A DNA stretch of 64,000 nucleotides, taken from a candidate division FCPU426 bacterium. GTDB taxonomy: Bacteria > Oederibacteriota > JAAXVQ01 > JAUVAV01. Of this stretch, positions 5,333 through 51,154 are shown piece by piece. A program made the translations under genes and the position numbers. The stretch is from the NCBI GenBank assembly GCA_030591525.1, contig JAUVAV010000006.1, positions 1 to 64,000 on the forward strand. The letters are read 5' to 3'. How positions within the stretch are numbered: the stretch's first letter is position 1; each line of letters starts with the position of its first letter. The notes beneath the pieces were generated by a model. That model did not search any database, was not told where the DNA came from, and saw only the letters and a program-made list of their open reading frames with translations.

Positions 5333-6943
5333 CTACTCCACCCAGGGTTCACTGGTTCCGCGCATACCGACTTTGGTACGTATCAGCTGCCACACCCGTG
5401 TCTGCTCCGGAACCTTGAAAAACCAGGCAAAAGCAATATAGGCAAAAGCTCCGAAAATAATCAGGCAGAAAACTTTGTACGCCAGTTCCCACCGCGGCAT
5501 ACCCAGGCCGTAATCCGGCAGCCATCGCTGGCTGCCGGACCAGATGAGAAAACCCATGCCGGCCGCAGCCAGGCCAACCCGGAATAGCGACCGCATAATT
5601 CTCCGGCCGTCCAGCGTCCCCAATCTCCGATGCAGGAATATAACCAGCAGCGACATATTAACCAAGGCCGCAATCGTAGTCGCCAGGGCCAACCCTCGAT
5701 ATCCCATGGGTTTCATCAATAGCAAATTCAAAGCAATATTGACCACTACGGCACAAACCGCCGCCATTACCGGTGTTTTGGCGTCGCTCAGAGCATAAAA
5801 AGTCGGAACAATTACTTTGACCCCGGCAAAGGCAACCAGGCCTAAAGTATAAAAAATTGTGGCTTGAGCGACCGCCGAAACCGCCGCCGGACTGAAACGC
5901 CCATACTCAAAAAGCAGACGGTTAATAGGTTCGGATAATATTATGATCCCTACGGCCGCCGGCACCGTAATTACAAACAGCAGGCGAAGACCAAAGGAGA
6001 GAGTTTCAATGAATTTATCTTTTTCTCCCCGGGCCCAAAGCGAGGAGGTGACCGGAAGCAGGGCCGTGGCAATCGCCACTCCGAAAACTCCCAAAGGAAG
6101 CTGCATAAGGCGGTTTCCGTAATAAAGATAGGTTACCGCGCCTTCGGGTAAAAAAGAGGCTATTATGGTATTAATAAAAAGATTGATCTGGGTAACTGAT
6201 AAACCAAGAATGGCCGGCCCCATGAGCATCATCATCCGGCGCAAACCCGGGTCTTTCCAATCAAGCAGAGGTTTCCATCTATAACCCTGTTTCCAGACCG
6301 CTGGGATTTGGATGGCCATCTGGAGGACTCCTCCCAGCAGAGCTCCCCATGCCCAGCCAATTACCTGCTTTTCCGGGGTAGCGCCGAACAAGGGGCAGAT
6401 AAACACACCCGTCACTATCATGCTCAAATTCAGCATTACCGGCGCTAAAGCCGGTACGCCGAAGCGTTCGCGGGAATTTAGAACACCCATCATTACCGCA
6501 GCCAGGCTGATAAAAGCCAGAAAAGGAAAAAGAATCCGGGTCAAATGGATGGTAAGGCTTAATTTTTCAGGAACCGCGACAAAACCCGGAACAATAGCGC
6601 GGACTACGCCGGGAGCGCCGATTTCACCCAGCAGTACCAATCCCAGCATAATAACCAGTACGGCATTGATCACAATGGAAACCAGACGCCAGGCCCTGGC
6701 TGTTCCCTCTTTAACCCATGTGGCGGTAAAGGTAGGAATAAAGGCCGAAGATAAAGCCCCTTCGGCGAATAAATCACGCAATAGATTGGGAATGCGGAAA
6801 GCTGCTAAATAAGCGTCATTCGCCATTCCCGCACCCAGAATCGCTCCCCCGATGCCGTCGCGTACATATCCGAAAATCCTGGAAAGCATGGTGAATCCAG
6901 AAATAACTCCTGCAGTTTTTGCCAGTTTTTTGCTGCGTACCAT
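5333..6943 (-). CDS. murJ: Lipid II flippase MurJ
   Basis: 536 residues and about 14 hydrophobic segments. The N-terminus shows the MurJ signature: SGFTMLSRIFGYVRDG, ANDAYLAAFRIPNLLRDLFA and EGALSSAFIPTF. Residues from these helices line the central cavity in known MurJ structures, with conserved arginines and an aspartate. The protein moves undecaprenyl-linked peptidoglycan precursor across the inner membrane. It lies 17 bases upstream of ogt and 25 bases downstream of rph, so it belongs to a long minus-strand run. Full length. Confidence 0.93.
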   Translation of the reverse strand: MVRSKKLAKTAGVISGFTMLSRIFGYVRDGIGGAILGAGMANDAYLAAFRIPNLLRDLFAEGALSSAFIPTFTATWVKEGTARAWRLVSIVINAVLVIMLGLVLLGEIGAPGVVRAIVPGFVAVPEKLSLTIHLTRILFPFLAFISLAAVMMGVLNSRERFGVPALAPVMLNLSMIVTGVFICPLFGATPEKQVIGWAWGALLGGVLQMAIQIPAVWKQGYRWKPLLDWKDPGLRRMMMLMGPAILGLSVTQINLFINTIIASFLPEGAVTYLYYGNRLMQLPLGVFGVAIATALLPVTSSLWARGEKDKFIETLSFGLRLLFVITVPAAVGIIILSEPINRLLFEYGRFSPAAVSAVAQATIFYTLGLVAFAGVKVIVPTFYALSDAKTPVMAAVCAVVVNIALNLLLMKPMGYRGLALATTIAALVNMSLLVIFLHRRLGTLDGRRIMRSLFRVGLAAAGMGFLIWSGSQRWLPDYGLGMPRWELAYKVFCLIIFGAFAYIAFAWFFKVPEQTRVWQLIRTKVGMRGTSEPWVE

Positions 6944-6968
6944 TGATTAATATTCCTTCAAGACATTT

Positions 6969-7676
6969 TTATTCCAAGTTTTTTTGTTGTTGAATTATGG
7001 TCTTAATGCCCTGAGCCGCCAGATCCATCAATTCGTTCATTTGTCCGCGTGAAAATGGGATTTTTTCAGCAGTTCCCTGGATCTCAATTATTTTTTCAGA
7101 CTCGGTCATTACCACGTTCATATCCACCTCGGCCCGGCTGTCCTCGGCATAATTCAGGTCTAGCACTACGCTCTCGTCCACTATACCCACCGAGACCGCG
7201 GCTAAATAATCCCGCAGCGGCCACTCCCTTATAGTTCCTTTTTTCATCAAACAACTGCAAGCATCGTGAAGCGCCAGGTAGACCCCGGAAATCGCAGTGG
7301 TACGCGTTCCTCCATCTGCTTGTATAACATCACAATCCAAAATAATGGTACGTTCCCCCAGCTTTACCAGGTCTATAACCGCGCGAAGCGACCTTCCTAT
7401 CAGCCGCTGTATCTCCTGGGTCCGCCCGGTTCTATTCCTTCCCGCCTCGCGTTGTATACGAGTCGGCGAAGAACGAGGCAGCATACCGTATTCCGCCGTC
7501 ACCCATCCCTGTCCCTTGCCCCGAAGAAAGTGTGGAACATCCGGTTGAACCGTTGCGGTACAAAGAACCTTGGTATGCCCGGATTCCATCAAAATCGCTC
7601 CCTCCACATCTTTTAAGTAATTATGGGTTATTTTAATTGGTCTTAATTCATTTGGTTTACGTCCATCCACTCTCAC
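6969..7676 (-). CDS. rph: Ribonuclease PH
   Basis: 235 residues, the usual size. Family motifs: [14 protein letters not shown] at the start, [19 protein letters not shown] in the middle, and [18 protein letters not shown], which includes the phosphate and metal site. The enzyme trims the 3' ends of tRNA precursors by phosphorolysis as a hexameric ring. It starts four bases after the stop of the dehydratase-like gene, suggesting co-transcription. No truncation is seen, unlike the frameshifted rph of some E. coli K-12 strains. Confidence 0.95.
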
Positions 7677-7680
7677 AATT

Positions 7681-8685
7681 TCATCTCCTTTCCTCCTGCC
7701 GGGCTATAAGCATCTCAATAAAGGCCTCCAGCCGCGTCTTAGTTCTGCTGTCCAAGGGACCGACCCGGTCTCCTTCCAGGGTTAAAATTGGCAGCGGCAA
7801 CTGTTCGCGAAAAACCATATCTTCCAACTGGTGATGGCAAAACGATTGCACATAATGAATATAGCCATCAAGCTTTCGAAACCGGGTCTGTTCTGATATA
7901 TCCTGAAGACGTCCGGACAAATCATAGGGGTACGTATAAGCCAGATATTGTTCTAAAAAGTCGGTATGCTGATACGGCATGGCGAACTGCCGTGCAATTT
8001 CATGCAAAACAACCCTAGCGCCTTTTTCTTCCAGAAATTCTTTCAAATCCGAGAAGACATCAGGTACTCCCAGTAAACCCAGTCGCAGCATGTTTTCAGG
8101 CGCTTTTCCCTGTCTTTTGGCCAGTATCTTTTCTAATTGTTTTTTGAAATATTCCGCGTCACCCAGGAAGTCTGAACAGTTTACCAGCGCAAATAAATTG
8201 TCCTGGCTTGAAATATTATTCTCCTGCCAGGTCCGGCGATCTATCTCGAGAGCCAACTTCCGTATATCGTCCAGATGCACCTTGGCTTGAAGCACATCAT
8301 CCCATTGGACCTCGAAATAATCCATCAACTTTTGTATTTCCGCGCGCAAGTTTCTCCGGATTTTCCCATGCGGGAATGAAAACGGTATAAACTCAACTCC
8401 CCGGGGCAAGAGATTTTCCAGCATGGTTAACATATGCGTACAATCCCCTTGCACCACGCCTATAACCGTTCGGATATCAGTATTCCTGAGCAAGCTGTAT
8501 ATCCCCTTGACCCAGACGCATATATTGTGTGGAAGGCCAGAACGCTCCGCCTCATTTACCAGGTCGGCTGAATCGGCATTGGTAATAAACATGTTATTTA
8601 AATCCCGCGGCACTCGTTGTGCCGCGATTATAATCTCCACCGGAATTGTAGAAGTTATGCCTATAACCTCTTTTAAACCAATCAT
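7681..8685 (-). CDS. 2-hydroxyacyl-CoA dehydratase family protein (HgdB-like), orphan
   Basis: 334 residues resembling the D-component of 2-hydroxyglutaryl-CoA dehydratase and related double-cubane-cluster proteins. Three conserved-type cysteines are present: C56 in ICVWVKG, C82 in VVQGDCTHM and C283 in SFCHHQ, spaced as expected for iron-sulfur ligands. The second half ends with [11 protein letters not shown], also a family feature. A true dehydratase needs a partner subunit and the ATP-dependent activator HgdC; neither is in this window. It sits between queE and rph, so a role in an unrecognised reductive reaction, perhaps in nucleoside modification, is possible but unproven. Confidence 0.7.
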
Positions 8686-8734
8686 TTTTAGAATCCTTTA
8701 ATGTGATTTATCAATCCGTATATTGTGCTGCTAA

Positions 8735-27480: not shown

Positions 27481-28566
27481 TTATTCTTTGTCCTCCCTAT
27501 TCTCAAGACGCAGACGGGCATGTTGGATCGCTTCATGAAACTTTTTTTGTAATATTTTTTTCGGTAGAAGTTTAGTCATATATTCAGCCACACGAATACC
27601 AGCCTTACCCAATTCCAGAAGCTCTATCCGTTCATTGGATTTTCCCGCGCATAAAATGAGCCCAACAGGACAGTCTTCACCCGGCTTGCGCTCATACTTA
27701 TCCAGCCAGCGTAAATATAACTCCATCTGCCCTTTATAATCCGGCTTGAAATTTCCCAGTTTCAATTCAATGGCAATGAGCCTGCGCAAATTACGGTGAT
27801 AAAACAGCAAATCAAGATAAAAATCCTCTCCGTCGACAATCATGCGTTTTTGTCGTTCAACAAAGGTAAACCCAACACCTAATTCCATAATAAAAGCTTC
27901 TAATTCACGCAAGATAGCCGCTTCCAGGTCTTTTTCCTGATATGCGCCCTTAAGTCCGAGAAAATCCAGAAAATATGGGTCTCTGAATACAAGATCAGGA
28001 GTAAGTTTATCTTCTTTCCGCAATTTGCCAAGTTCAAGTTTGGCAAGCTTTTCCGGTTTTTTAGCAAGCGCTGTACGCTCAAATAACATTCCGTCTATTT
28101 TTTTACGAAGTGTCCGCACACTCCACCGCTCAATCCGGCACATTTCGGCGTAGAAGTCACGCGCGAGATCGTCTTTGACAGGAAATATCTCAACAAAATG
28201 ACTCCAACTCAATTGTTTCGACAACGTCGCAACAATCTTCTGATCTGGAAAATACTCCGCAAACTGTAACATTCGCGCAAGATTAAACCGCGTGAAACCT
28301 TTACCATAATCCCTGGTTAATTGTGCCGACAGTGTCGCAACAATTTCTTGACCGTATTCTGCCCTATTCCCTTGCAGTATTTCATCCTTAATCCGCTTGC
28401 CGATCTGCCAGTAAAGCATGGTCAGCGCTGCGTTCACGGATACCGCAACAGCATTGCGCGCTTCTTCAATCATCTGACGGATATCTTTTATAAGGATGTC
28501 TGGCTTTTTCAGTAGCGTTTTTTTGTCCGGACGCTTGCTTGCATATTTAATCATTTTTTTCGCCAT
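27481..28566 (-). CDS. DUF1016 (YhcG-type) PD-(D/E)XK nuclease-domain protein
   Basis: 361 residues from the ATG at 28566, which has AGGAG eight bases upstream; the frame is open to 28629. The N-terminal DUF1016_N helical region includes YWQIGKRIKDEIL, GKGFTRFNLARMLQF and LSWSHFVEIF. The C-terminal nuclease domain has FYLDLLFYHRNLRRLIAIELKLG, in which the spaced D and ExK match the PD-(D/E)XK core. Relatives occur beside restriction-modification and other defence genes and are thought to be nucleases; their targets are not established. It follows the PIN-like membrane gene by 52 bases on the same strand. Remains of a second DUF1016 gene lie at 30623-30786. Confidence 0.88.
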   Translation of the reverse strand: MAKKMIKYASKRPDKKTLLKKPDILIKDIRQMIEEARNAVAVSVNAALTMLYWQIGKRIKDEILQGNRAEYGQEIVATLSAQLTRDYGKGFTRFNLARMLQFAEYFPDQKIVATLSKQLSWSHFVEIFPVKDDLARDFYAEMCRIERWSVRTLRKKIDGMLFERTALAKKPEKLAKLELGKLRKEDKLTPDLVFRDPYFLDFLGLKGAYQEKDLEAAILRELEAFIMELGVGFTFVERQKRMIVDGEDFYLDLLFYHRNLRRLIAIELKLGNFKPDYKGQMELYLRWLDKYERKPGEDCPVGLILCAGKSNERIELLELGKAGIRVAEYMTKLLPKKILQKKFHEAIQHARLRLENREDKE

Positions 28567-28618
28567 ATGGTGATCTCCTCTAATCGGACAAGTCCTGAGG
28601 CCTTTTGTTTTTTGCTGC

Positions 28619-30556
28619 TCATAGCCCACCCCAAAACATATTAATTATTTTATCTGTAATACTCCTCATATACTTTTTTTTCCAATCCTCATAAAAAGAA
28701 TGTTTTCGGGACAATCCCCAAAAAGAAAACAATGCAACTACATTCAAGAAAATTGCACCAATAATTTTGCCCCACCAAGAAACCCCCGTTAGCAGTGTGG
28801 CAACACTAACTACTAACACAATCACGAAAGAAACCACTCCATCAAAACTTCGAGAAATATATTTTTCAACCTTTTGACGTTTATTATCTTTAAATTTTCC
28901 CGTCTTCTGCTTTTCGCTAGCAAGCTCGTTTTCCATCCGCTCACGAATATCGCGTTCTGCATAATACTTTCTCAATCCCTCTTCCTTTGATTGACTCTTC
29001 AGCTTGTCCAACATATCAAGCGGAGTGTTTTCTGTTATCGACTCTATATTGTCAACATTTTCAACTAACATCTCATTAAACACACTTGATGCTCTTAAAA
29101 GCAAATAATCATCCTCTTCTATTTTTTTATTTTGGAAACAGTTCTCTACTTCTACTAAATATTTTCGAATCATATGGTCGGTTGGTTTTAAAATACAATA
29201 ACTTTCTACAATAAGTTTCCTTTTAGCCAATTTATCAATATACGTTGGTGTCTGAAGCCACATATATGTCCCGAGAAAAACGTCAGTAACGCAAATAGGG
29301 ATAAAATTATCTTTATTTTTTTCTTCGAATTGCATATGATAATTTTTGCAAATTTTGGCTAAAGAACTATTCGCACACATAAAGACAACCTTAATATCTT
29401 TAAATTGATTAGGATATTTTCTCCTGATTCTCCTATACACCATATTTATTGAACGAACATCGTTATCTAATAATCGCGAACTACTGTCTTCATCAAAGAA
29501 TTCATTTGTTTTTCGGTATTCTTCCACGATAAGTTCTTTCAATTTTTTATCGTCAATATTATATTTATTATCAGCCGTATTATATTCTGCATCTTCAATA
29601 TCAACCCCATTCTTTTCAAGCTCTTTATCTATCCTATTTAGGAGAATATCCACCTCTAAATCTGTGTAATTATTGGAAACAAAATGCAATAATGTTTTTG
29701 ATGCTTTATTCATATTCCTATTCGGATCATTTAACCATCTTTTTGCATTTTTAACATTTTGAACTATTTCATCATATGTATGTTTAAATAAAACAAGCTG
29801 ACATTTGGTAGTAGTAAATATTCCAAAAAGCTCTTCAATCATTTTTTGCTGTATATCGCCGTCCAAACCCAACAATTTCAAAATATGCGAAGTATCACAA
29901 TATATTCGAATTTTTTTGATTTTTTCTTCATATGGCTGTTTTGCTTCGTTCACAATAGTAGCCGCCAACATATGTCCAGCGGCAATCTCTACTATATGTT
30001 GAAAAACACCGCTGTTTTTATCTGATTCCAGTTTAATAAACTCAGCTAATTGCCTTATTAGCTTTATAGAGAAATCAACTTTAGGTAATAAATATTCATT
30101 ATTTTTAGCGAAAAACAAAAGGCTGGCATCCTGTCGCTCAAGAAAAGATATAAAAACATTATTAGCCTGTCCTTCATCTATGTTTTTATTATATTTCTTT
30201 TTAATAAAGTTTATGAATTCACATAATACTCCTTGATATTTGTTTTCATGGTTTTTTCTTATAGAAATTATTGTTTCTAGGGGCGTTTTTTTATTCTTCC
30301 AAACCTCTTTTCCACAGTACTCAATTTTTCCAAACCTAACCAACCGCTTTAAAACAGCCTTCATCGGATGATGAGGAATCCGAAATAAAAATTCCTGATT
30401 AAAATCTTGACATATACGGTCAAGATTCACTTCTTCATATTTTTTTCGCGCAAATAGCTCTTCAACAAAAGGAACAAAAGTATCTAAATAATTTTTTCCA
30501 TTACGCCAATTAGCATTTAGAATTGAAAAATTTATTAAAGATCTCATATTATCCAT
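28619..30556 (-). CDS. PIN-like nuclease domain protein with C-terminal membrane segments, uncharacterised
   Basis: 645 residues from the ATG at 30556, with AAGGAG six bases upstream (a GTG six codons earlier gives 651; numbering here uses the longer form). The first 200 residues are helical and unrecognised. From about 222, the pattern IRIYCDTSHILKLLG, CQLVLFKHTYDEI, DVRSINMVYRRIR and VVFMCANSSLAKI resembles a PIN domain, with likely acidic residues D227, E269 and D372. The fourth position, usually Asp, appears to be Asn402 or Ser. Two transmembrane helices lie near 575-620, with a basic tail. Base composition is much more AT-rich than its neighbours, suggesting transfer. An RNase activity tied to the membrane is possible but unproven. 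Confidence 0.6.
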   Translation of the reverse strand: MDNMRSLINFSILNANWRNGKNYLDTFVPFVEELFARKKYEEVNLDRICQDFNQEFLFRIPHHPMKAVLKRLVRFGKIEYCGKEVWKNKKTPLETIISIRKNHENKYQGVLCEFINFIKKKYNKNIDEGQANNVFISFLERQDASLLFFAKNNEYLLPKVDFSIKLIRQLAEFIKLESDKNSGVFQHIVEIAAGHMLAATIVNEAKQPYEEKIKKIRIYCDTSHILKLLGLDGDIQQKMIEELFGIFTTTKCQLVLFKHTYDEIVQNVKNAKRWLNDPNRNMNKASKTLLHFVSNNYTDLEVDILLNRIDKELEKNGVDIEDAEYNTADNKYNIDDKKLKELIVEEYRKTNEFFDEDSSSRLLDNDVRSINMVYRRIRRKYPNQFKDIKVVFMCANSSLAKICKNYHMQFEEKNKDNFIPICVTDVFLGTYMWLQTPTYIDKLAKRKLIVESYCILKPTDHMIRKYLVEVENCFQNKKIEEDDYLLLRASSVFNEMLVENVDNIESITENTPLDMLDKLKSQSKEEGLRKYYAERDIRERMENELASEKQKTGKFKDNKRQKVEKYISRSFDGVVSFVIVLVVSVATLLTGVSWWGKIIGAIFLNVVALFSFWGLSRKHSFYEDWKKKYMRSITDKIINMFWGGL

Positions 30557-30622
30557 AAGACACTCCTTATTCACTTCATTACATATCTCATCGTCAAAAA
30601 GTCTTCTGTTTTTGTCCTTTGT

Positions 30623-30786
30623 TTACTTGTAAGGCGTCCAACTCAATTTGTTGAGCAGGCCACTACATTTTGGTTAAGCAAGATAAAACTACTTGAGGTT
30701 GCGTAAATTCGATTCATCAAAGCCTTTACCAATTTCAGAAGTAAGTTTGCTACTAATTTTTTCTATAATTAATTTTCCATAACCAA
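30623..30786 (-). pseudogene. DUF1016 (YhcG) gene remnant
   Basis: Minus-strand translation of 30786-30689 gives KLIIEKISSKLTSEIGKGF then DESNLRNLK and a stop, the typical DUF1016 N-terminal core. After a frame change, 30660-30623 gives LLNKLSWTPYK, matching the LSWxHY motif that follows in this family. Both parts are in order but broken by a stop and a frameshift, so this is a decayed gene, distinct from the intact copy at 27481. Confidence 0.75.
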
Positions 30787-30818
30787 GCCTGGATTAGTCT
30801 TTTCGCTCCGCATCGCTT

Positions 30819-49999: not shown

Positions 50000-51154
50000 T
50001 TATCTCAAGATGGCCAATTTCCCTTTTTTGCGCTGACCCTCATTATTTTGGATTACGTATAAATAAATACCGGAAGCTAATTTCTGGCCGGACATATTCC
50101 TGACGCCGCTCCATTCAATCCGGTCGGAACCGTCGTTCTTTTCCGCCTCCCAAACAAGCTCTCCGCTCAGATTATATACTTTCAGAGAAGCATTAAACGT
50201 CAAATGAATAAAATTAATCCTCTTAAATACAGACTTTCTTTCCATATAAGGATTGGGGAAAACTATTACTCCGTCCAGATTATCTGACGGCTGAGCCGTG
50301 GTAGTCGGCGTCTGCGTGAGCGTTATGGTTGAAGTAGGCGTAATCGTAGGCGTATGCGTACTGGTAGGCGTAATGGTAAAGGTCGGAGTTATTGTAAAAG
50401 TCACGGTTATAGTGGGCGTAGCCGTAAAAGTCGGCGTATAAGTAGGGGTTGCAGTACAAGTGTGAGTAATAGTAAAGGTCGGCGTATGGGTCGGAGTTAC
50501 AGTACGCGTCGGGGTGTGGGTAAAGGTCGGTGAATAGGTCGGAGTTGAGGTGCGCGTCGAAGAGCAAGTAAAGGTAGGCGAAGCCGTTGCGGTCACAGTT
50601 CGGGTCGGCGTAGATGTAAAAGTCGGGGTAAGCGTTAAAGTCGGTGTATACGTCGAGGTCGGCGTTATCGTCCTGGTTACGGTACGTGTCGGAGTATACG
50701 TCCGTGTGTTGGTCGGGGTACCGGTTCGTGTAATCGTCGGTGTAACAGTAAAGGTCGGCGTCCTAGTGCTGCTCGGTGTAATCGTCGGGGTAGCGGTAAA
50801 GGTCGGCGTCCTAGTGCTGCTCGGTGTAATCGTCGCTGTAGCGGTAAAGGTCGGAGTCCCTGTGCTGCTCGGTGTAATCGTCGCTGTGGCGGTAAAGGTC
50901 GGAGTCCCTGTGCCGCTCGGTGTAATCGTCGACGTAGCGGTAATGGTAGGGGTCCCTGTGCTGCTCAGTGTAATCGTCGGAGTGGCGGTAAAGGTAGGAG
51001 TCCACGTGCTGCTCGGTGTAATCGTCCGGGTATCTGTAGGCGTTTCTGTGGGAGTATCAACCGCAGCCGCATGAGATAAGTCCCATAAGCCAAGCACACT
51101 TGCCACCACTATCAAAGCGACTACTATTTTATATTTCGGAAAAATCCATCTCAT
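50000..51154 (-). CDS. Exported Thr/Pro-repeat protein with FlgD-like C-terminal domain
   Basis: 384 residues. A signal peptide occupies about 1-31 ([21 protein letters not shown]). Residues 35-290 are a low-complexity mosaic of TPT, TPS and TPTFTAT units, built from a 48-base (16-residue) repeat. The C-terminal 90 residues read [39 protein letters not shown] and end KKGKLAILR, the FlgD Ig-like/secretion-tail pattern. The repeat is probably an extended stalk, perhaps O-glycosylated. It stands between two PorV-like genes. No relative can be named. Confidence 0.8.
50285..51040. repeat. Tandem 48-base repeat array inside the Thr/Pro protein
   Basis: GCTCGGTGTAATCGTC recurs at 50771, 50819, 50867, 50915 and 51011 (48-base spacing, one changed unit at 50963). 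Shorter, degenerate units extend to about 50285. Encodes [15 protein letters not shown]-like units and is expected to vary in length between strains. Confidence 0.85.

Follow-up and report, generated by a model that had tools for sequence, protein, structure and literature searches.

Two adjacent genes in the genome of a candidate division FCPU426 bacterium raise the question of whether they form a single, undescribed defence module, or whether one of them belongs to a defence family that acts on its own. The window, that is the whole stretch of 64,000 nucleotides that was analysed, carries both genes on its minus strand (Table 1). A first-pass annotation proposed that the upstream gene, referred to here as the PIN-2TM gene, encodes a PIN-like membrane protein that is paired with the nuclease encoded by the downstream DUF1016 gene.

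Table 1. Features of the PIN-2TM locus, in window coordinates.
Feature	Position	Strand	Remarks
PIN-2TM gene	28619..30556	minus	intact ORF, 645 aa
DUF1016_N + YhcG_C PD-(D/E)XK gene	27481..28566	minus	intact ORF; PADLOC candidate PDC-S02
PIN-domain coding segment (residues 165-440)	29237..30064	minus	domain modelled alone; invariant D221, E263, D366, N396, W433
Coding segment, two hydrophobic C-terminal helices (residues 574-617)	28706..28837	minus	hydrophobic helices
Decayed DUF1016_N fragment, upstream of PIN-2TM gene	30578..30793	minus	sequence similarity

Both reading frames are intact, and the 52-nt gap that was first described between them is confirmed (28567–28618). The PIN-2TM gene starts at the ATG at 30556, behind a strong Shine–Dalgarno sequence (AAGGAG, spacing 6 nt), which gives the 645-residue product; the DUF1016 gene starts at the ATG at 28566 and is preceded by GAGGAG. 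The GC content is 0.31 in the PIN-2TM gene (GC3 0.27), 0.43 in the DUF1016 gene (GC3 0.42) and 0.49–0.55 in the flanking genes (GC3 0.48–0.57, about 0.55). The earlier description of both genes as far more AT-rich than their surroundings therefore holds for the PIN-2TM gene, whereas the DUF1016 gene deviates only mildly. As the two genes share no common composition, their GC3 values argue against a joint arrival.

The DUF1016 debris reported upstream is real, with 35% identity (E 5e-4) to residues 88–165 of the longest frame of the intact DUF1016 copy. Some 30 codons make up the 'helicase' debris, which may resemble a helicase N-terminus. Short direct and inverted repeats around the PIN-2TM gene resemble AT-rich chance matches and reveal no insertion boundary. 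All seven order-level relatives of the host that were examined lack the PIN-2TM gene. The thrC-apgM-AK-trxA-trxB block is kept in host relatives with no PIN-2TM gene beside trxB; smc was not found adjoining trxB in those relatives, and so no clean empty site can be demonstrated. Elsewhere in the window (50000–51154), 48-bp tandem repeats encode a long Thr/Pro repeat in a secreted-type protein, and GC skew reverses locally.

The downstream protein is of the PD-(D/E)XK YhcG type, as first annotated, with matches to DUF1016_N and YhcG_C (PF17761, 6.5e-49; PF06250, 3.8e-45) and to PDC-S02 in PADLOC (5e-128). Adjacency, a shared strand, the 52-nt spacing and the defence-type character of both genes would suit a two-gene module in which a membrane RNase acts together with a DNA nuclease, but the comparative context makes this very unlikely. 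Among about 30 other homologues, only two have DUF1016 in the vicinity, on the opposite strand at ~2.3 kb (L038) and at ~11.5 kb (L042), and an adjacent, same-strand pair, let alone an operon, was never found among these loci. The majority of homologues are either solitary or part of hsd operons. Furthermore, a second DUF1016 gene elsewhere in the host genome has no PIN-2TM partner, and the two window genes differ in GC3 (0.27 against 0.42). A conserved PIN-2TM and DUF1016 unit was rejected on these grounds, and with it the two-gene module of the first-pass annotation. The DUF1016 gene is probably a separate defence-type gene collected at the same site, and not a functional partner.

What, then, does the PIN-2TM protein do? 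From the structural model, it appears that the protein consists of a winged-helix-like N-terminus, a helical linker, a PIN domain (about residues 165–440), a long helix or coiled coil (about 510–570; the modelled helix spans 510–589) and two hydrophobic helices (574–592 and 598–616), into which the long helix leads. The winged-helix-like topology lies in the N-terminal ~90 residues (about 22–88; including 42–87), and the full-length model also matches winged-helix proteins in Foldseek searches. In those searches, N-terminal winged-helix and methyltransferase matches of low TM-score predominated, and comparison with viral models gave nothing useful. The PIN domain was therefore folded alone.

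Residues 165–440 were modelled with a pTM of 0.82 and a pLDDT of 83.6. The best ten PDB matches of this model are all PIN-superfamily proteins, namely HARP protein-only RNase P and VapC-type structures, with probabilities up to 1.00 and TM-scores by target up to 0.62, at E-values of 0.02–0.2 and none below 0.001. All 19 aligned homologues share Asp221, Glu263, Asp366 and Asn396, and likewise Trp433 and Pro437. The three acidic residues, which the first-pass annotation had picked out as D227, E269 and D372, occur in fixed order, and the fourth position is apparently Asn396 rather than the Asp of classical PIN domains. Profile evidence is sparser. PIN_3 (5e-4) and PIN_12 (0.024) give weak Pfam matches, each in one of the 19 members, and a PIN_3 match in L002 (6e-4) falls below the curated cut-off; an hhalign comparison of the family profile with VapC was not significant (probability 0.6%, E 0.096, only slightly better than shuffled controls). 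Although the Foldseek and hhalign E-values are weak, the consistent structural hits, the invariant residues and the weak PIN_3 and PIN_12 matches together support a PIN-type nuclease core in the modelled protein, as first proposed. In Pfam and NCBIfam nothing above the curated cut-offs matches the window protein, PADLOC yields no match either, and no PHROGs family describes it.

The two C-terminal hydrophobic helices are found in the window protein and in every full-length homologue checked; the sequence of L033 ends at a contig edge and is not full-length. Their presence supports a predicted membrane tether. Defence systems commonly employ two-helix membrane effectors, and the hairpin architecture is as conserved as the PIN domain, so that the hairpin could itself be the killing part, disrupting the membrane, with the PIN-like domain as a non-catalytic or regulatory sensor. 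This is quite improbable, as the Asp/Glu/Asp/Asn set is invariant and the C-terminal helices contain no invariant column in the 19-member alignment, a pattern that fits an anchor.

The nature of the substrate raises a further alternative. PIN-like folds include the FEN1/Exo1-type 5′ nucleases, Exo1 structures appear among the lower-ranked Foldseek matches of the PIN-domain model, and one clade of the family is linked to restriction operons. A DNA nuclease acting on phage DNA near the membrane would account for these observations; it has a low probability, since the better matches are RNases. RNA is accordingly favoured as the putative target because the closest structural matches, HARP and VapC, are RNases.

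The structural likeness to HARP and VapC does not extend to family membership. HARP, the minimal protein-only RNase P (PIN_5), is structurally the closest to the PIN domain (7og5, probability 1.00), but is a short, soluble, tRNA-processing enzyme. Neither the window protein nor any of the 19 members has a PIN_5 match, and membership of the HARP family was rejected. VapC shares the PIN-like fold and the acidic residues and is likewise represented among the Foldseek matches, but is a soluble protein of ~130 residues paired with VapB, whereas the PIN-2TM protein has 645 residues and a predicted membrane anchor. As no antitoxin gene was recognised adjoining the window gene or the annotated homologues inspected, a VapBC toxin–antitoxin identity, which would call for an adjacent small antitoxin gene, was also rejected.

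PIN-2TM is a rare, unnamed family. Searches with tblastn identified relatives of 22–26% identity, mostly near full-length, on plasmids of Enterococcus faecium, Sporosarcina, Arthrobacter, Klebsiella and Pantoea; with these relatives as queries, Hymenobacter was added. Whole-genome and contig searches added members from Chloroflexi, Acidobacteria, Kiritimatiellae, Gemmatimonadota, Gammaproteobacteria, Planctomycetes, Armatimonadetes, Verrucomicrobia, Nitrospirae, Bacteroidales and Actinomycetota. Matches at E <= 0.001 occur in nine of 384 genomes of a broad sample, two of them short and weak, and at the sensitivity used the gene was detected in two of 5,426 E. coli genomes. The phage collection contained no relative by tblastn, the contig collection yielded no match to the window protein alone, and viral contigs gave none with alignments A2 and A4; alignment A3 retrieved one viral contig, which encodes the same protein sequence as the E. 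coli copy L040. This sporadic spread across phyla and mobile elements is typical of mobile defence genes. A longer relative has 883 residues (L056:8301-10952); judged by eye, a zeta-toxin-like gene and a nucleotidyltransferase/HEPN-like pair are nearby. Just downstream of another homologue lies a second PIN-family protein (L007:3239-4111; PIN_8, E 2e-57).

Several homologues reside in recognisable defence contexts. In two E. coli P2-like prophages, the PIN-2TM homologue is a solitary cargo gene. One copy lies between ogr and D. The other lies between G and FI in the opposite orientation, at the exact fun(Z) site of the P2 reference, a locus reported as a defence-enriched hotspot (PMC9519451). 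Despite sharing site, orientation and solitary state with fun(Z), this copy is not homologous to it, a relationship ruled out by BLASTP and profile comparison. The two prophage genes occupy positions 4009886–4011862 of NZ_CP070026 and 2188670–2190637 of NZ_CM149560. The Sporosarcina homologue is close to a type II CBASS set (CD-NTase, ThiF/E1, JAB and SAVED), and the Hymenobacter homologue (L042) adjoins type III restriction–modification (R-M) methyltransferase and helicase genes, an AAA ATPase and a TIR gene. TIR genes neighbour further homologues, and others are carried on resistance plasmids. No recognised defence neighbours were seen at L032, L037, L057 or L058. These contexts, together with the type I R-M operons described below, support an association of the homologues with defence.

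A recurrent association of the PIN-2TM gene is seen with the type I restriction operon, and it is confined to one clade. Ten of the 12 members of this clade (bootstrap/SH-aLRT 100/99) are linked to type I R-M genes, and wherever both genes are visible the PIN-2TM gene lies between hsdS and hsdR. At L021, L022 and L029 the order is hsdM, hsdS, PIN-2TM gene, hsdR, with overlaps of 1–4 nt at most junctions; at L023, L026 and L028 a gap follows the PIN-2TM gene before hsdR; and at L030 hsdS precedes the gene and the start of hsdR follows it. At L020 and L025 hsdS is visible, and at L054 hsdR. Because the patterns for the contig search came from the hsd-linked clade, that clade is over-represented; of the eight full or long matches in the whole-genome samples, just two have a link to hsd genes (G078 and G613). 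On the tree, the hsd label changes three times, compatible with one gain and two losses.

At L023, two genes are inserted between the PIN-2TM gene and hsdR (5918–8725), one for a reverse transcriptase of the AbiP2 type (PADLOC E 1e-198) and one for a DUF1828/DUF1829 protein (PDC-M24B). This insertion indicates that the hsd site collects cassettes. Two HsdS subunits contain a mid-inserted GIY-YIG nuclease domain (L020:268-1884 and L026:8409-10007), and a third has an N-terminal fusion to a Pol-beta type nucleotidyltransferase (L022:8388-10004), possibly a gene-calling artefact.

There is precedent for such an arrangement. The type IC EcoprrI operon contains PrrC (PMC3874165), which has been called a guardian of R-M (PMC12707154), and DarTG2 and another gene pair are known from the gap between hsdS and hsdR (PMC12255303). 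The embedded PIN-2TM clade resembles PrrC in being a single extra gene within a type I R-M operon that encodes a proposed suicide nuclease, and by analogy its position suggests that it may sense the inhibition of restriction, as PrrC does. The proteins themselves differ: PrrC is an ABC-ATPase with an Arg-Glu-His triad (PMC2610378), whereas the PIN-2TM family combines a winged-helix-like domain, a PIN fold and two predicted transmembrane helices. DarTG2 and other cassettes occupy the same insertion place as the PIN-2TM clade (PMC12255303), but the proteins differ: DarTG2 is a toxin–antitoxin pair of two genes, and PIN-2TM is one gene without an antitoxin.

These parallels could be extended to the whole family, such that PIN-2TM would be a general PrrC-like guard: a latent nuclease held by the type I R-M complex and freed when a phage inhibits restriction, with the window copy acting in trans or having lost its partner. 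The position of the one clade between hsdS and hsdR, where several neighbouring genes overlap by 1–4 nt, and the PrrC and DarTG2 precedents are in keeping with this idea. Nevertheless, it is unlikely. Roughly 20 remaining members, including the window copy, have no linked hsd genes, the tree label changes fit a single gain of the hsd link, and the PrrC-type ABC-ATPase Pfam domain is absent from all 19 members searched. PrrC is linked to R-M and the window copy is not: the window genome holds one weak, partial HSDR_N match only, and the lack of an hsd partner favours an autonomous mode for this copy. RloC, too, is mostly free-standing (PMC2610378), like the other PIN-2TM relatives.

Two validated anti-phage PIN nucleases, DS-3 and DS-5, were reported with DefensePredictor (PMC13092281). 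DS-3 is likewise a one-protein system without an antitoxin, but its PIN domain is split between the N- and C-terminus, whereas that of PIN-2TM forms one central block (165–440). DS-5 requires a second protein, unlike the single-gene PIN-2TM. Both are set apart by their published descriptions (PMC13092281). The PIN-2TM accessions tried are not mentioned in the literature searched, outside which most preprints and closed-access papers fall, and an earlier description is possible.

On balance, the 645-residue gene is probably a horizontally acquired, autonomous, single-gene anti-phage system that encodes a membrane-anchored PIN nuclease and acts through abortive infection. The protein would be a PIN-superfamily nuclease, most likely an RNase, tethered to the cytoplasmic membrane through a hairpin of two C-terminal helices that follows a coiled coil, and its winged-helix-like N-terminal domain probably senses nucleic acid or a partner. 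The nuclease would presumably be silent in healthy cells, a property proposed because the gene is found without an antitoxin gene; upon infection it would cut cellular RNA and abort phage production. The analysis establishes the family, its architecture, the invariant acidic residues, the predicted PIN-like fold and the genomic contexts; the RNA substrate, autoinhibition, trigger and abortive infection are what we infer. One clade appears to have been captured into type I R-M operons, in the gap between hsdS and hsdR, and may be a PrrC-like guard there, while the window copy would represent the free-standing form and the DUF1016 nuclease a separate defence gene gathered at the same site.

More tentatively, PIN-2TM could be a modular suicide effector that comes in two forms, a free-standing gene and a guard incorporated between hsdS and hsdR that is triggered by phages disabling restriction; this would be the PrrC strategy, executed at the membrane with an unrelated nuclease.

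PIN nucleases, solitary defence genes and suicide genes embedded in R-M operons are already known; their combination as in PIN-2TM was not found. If the proposed function is correct, PIN-2TM would be a defence family that has no description in Pfam, NCBIfam, PADLOC or PHROGs as searched here, with members on plasmids from clinical species and in prophages of E. coli. The family would also be a second nuclease lineage at the type I R-M position that other embedded defence cassettes use, and 'restriction guarding' would become testable as a recurrent strategy. The E. coli homologues make PIN-2TM directly testable in laboratory strains.
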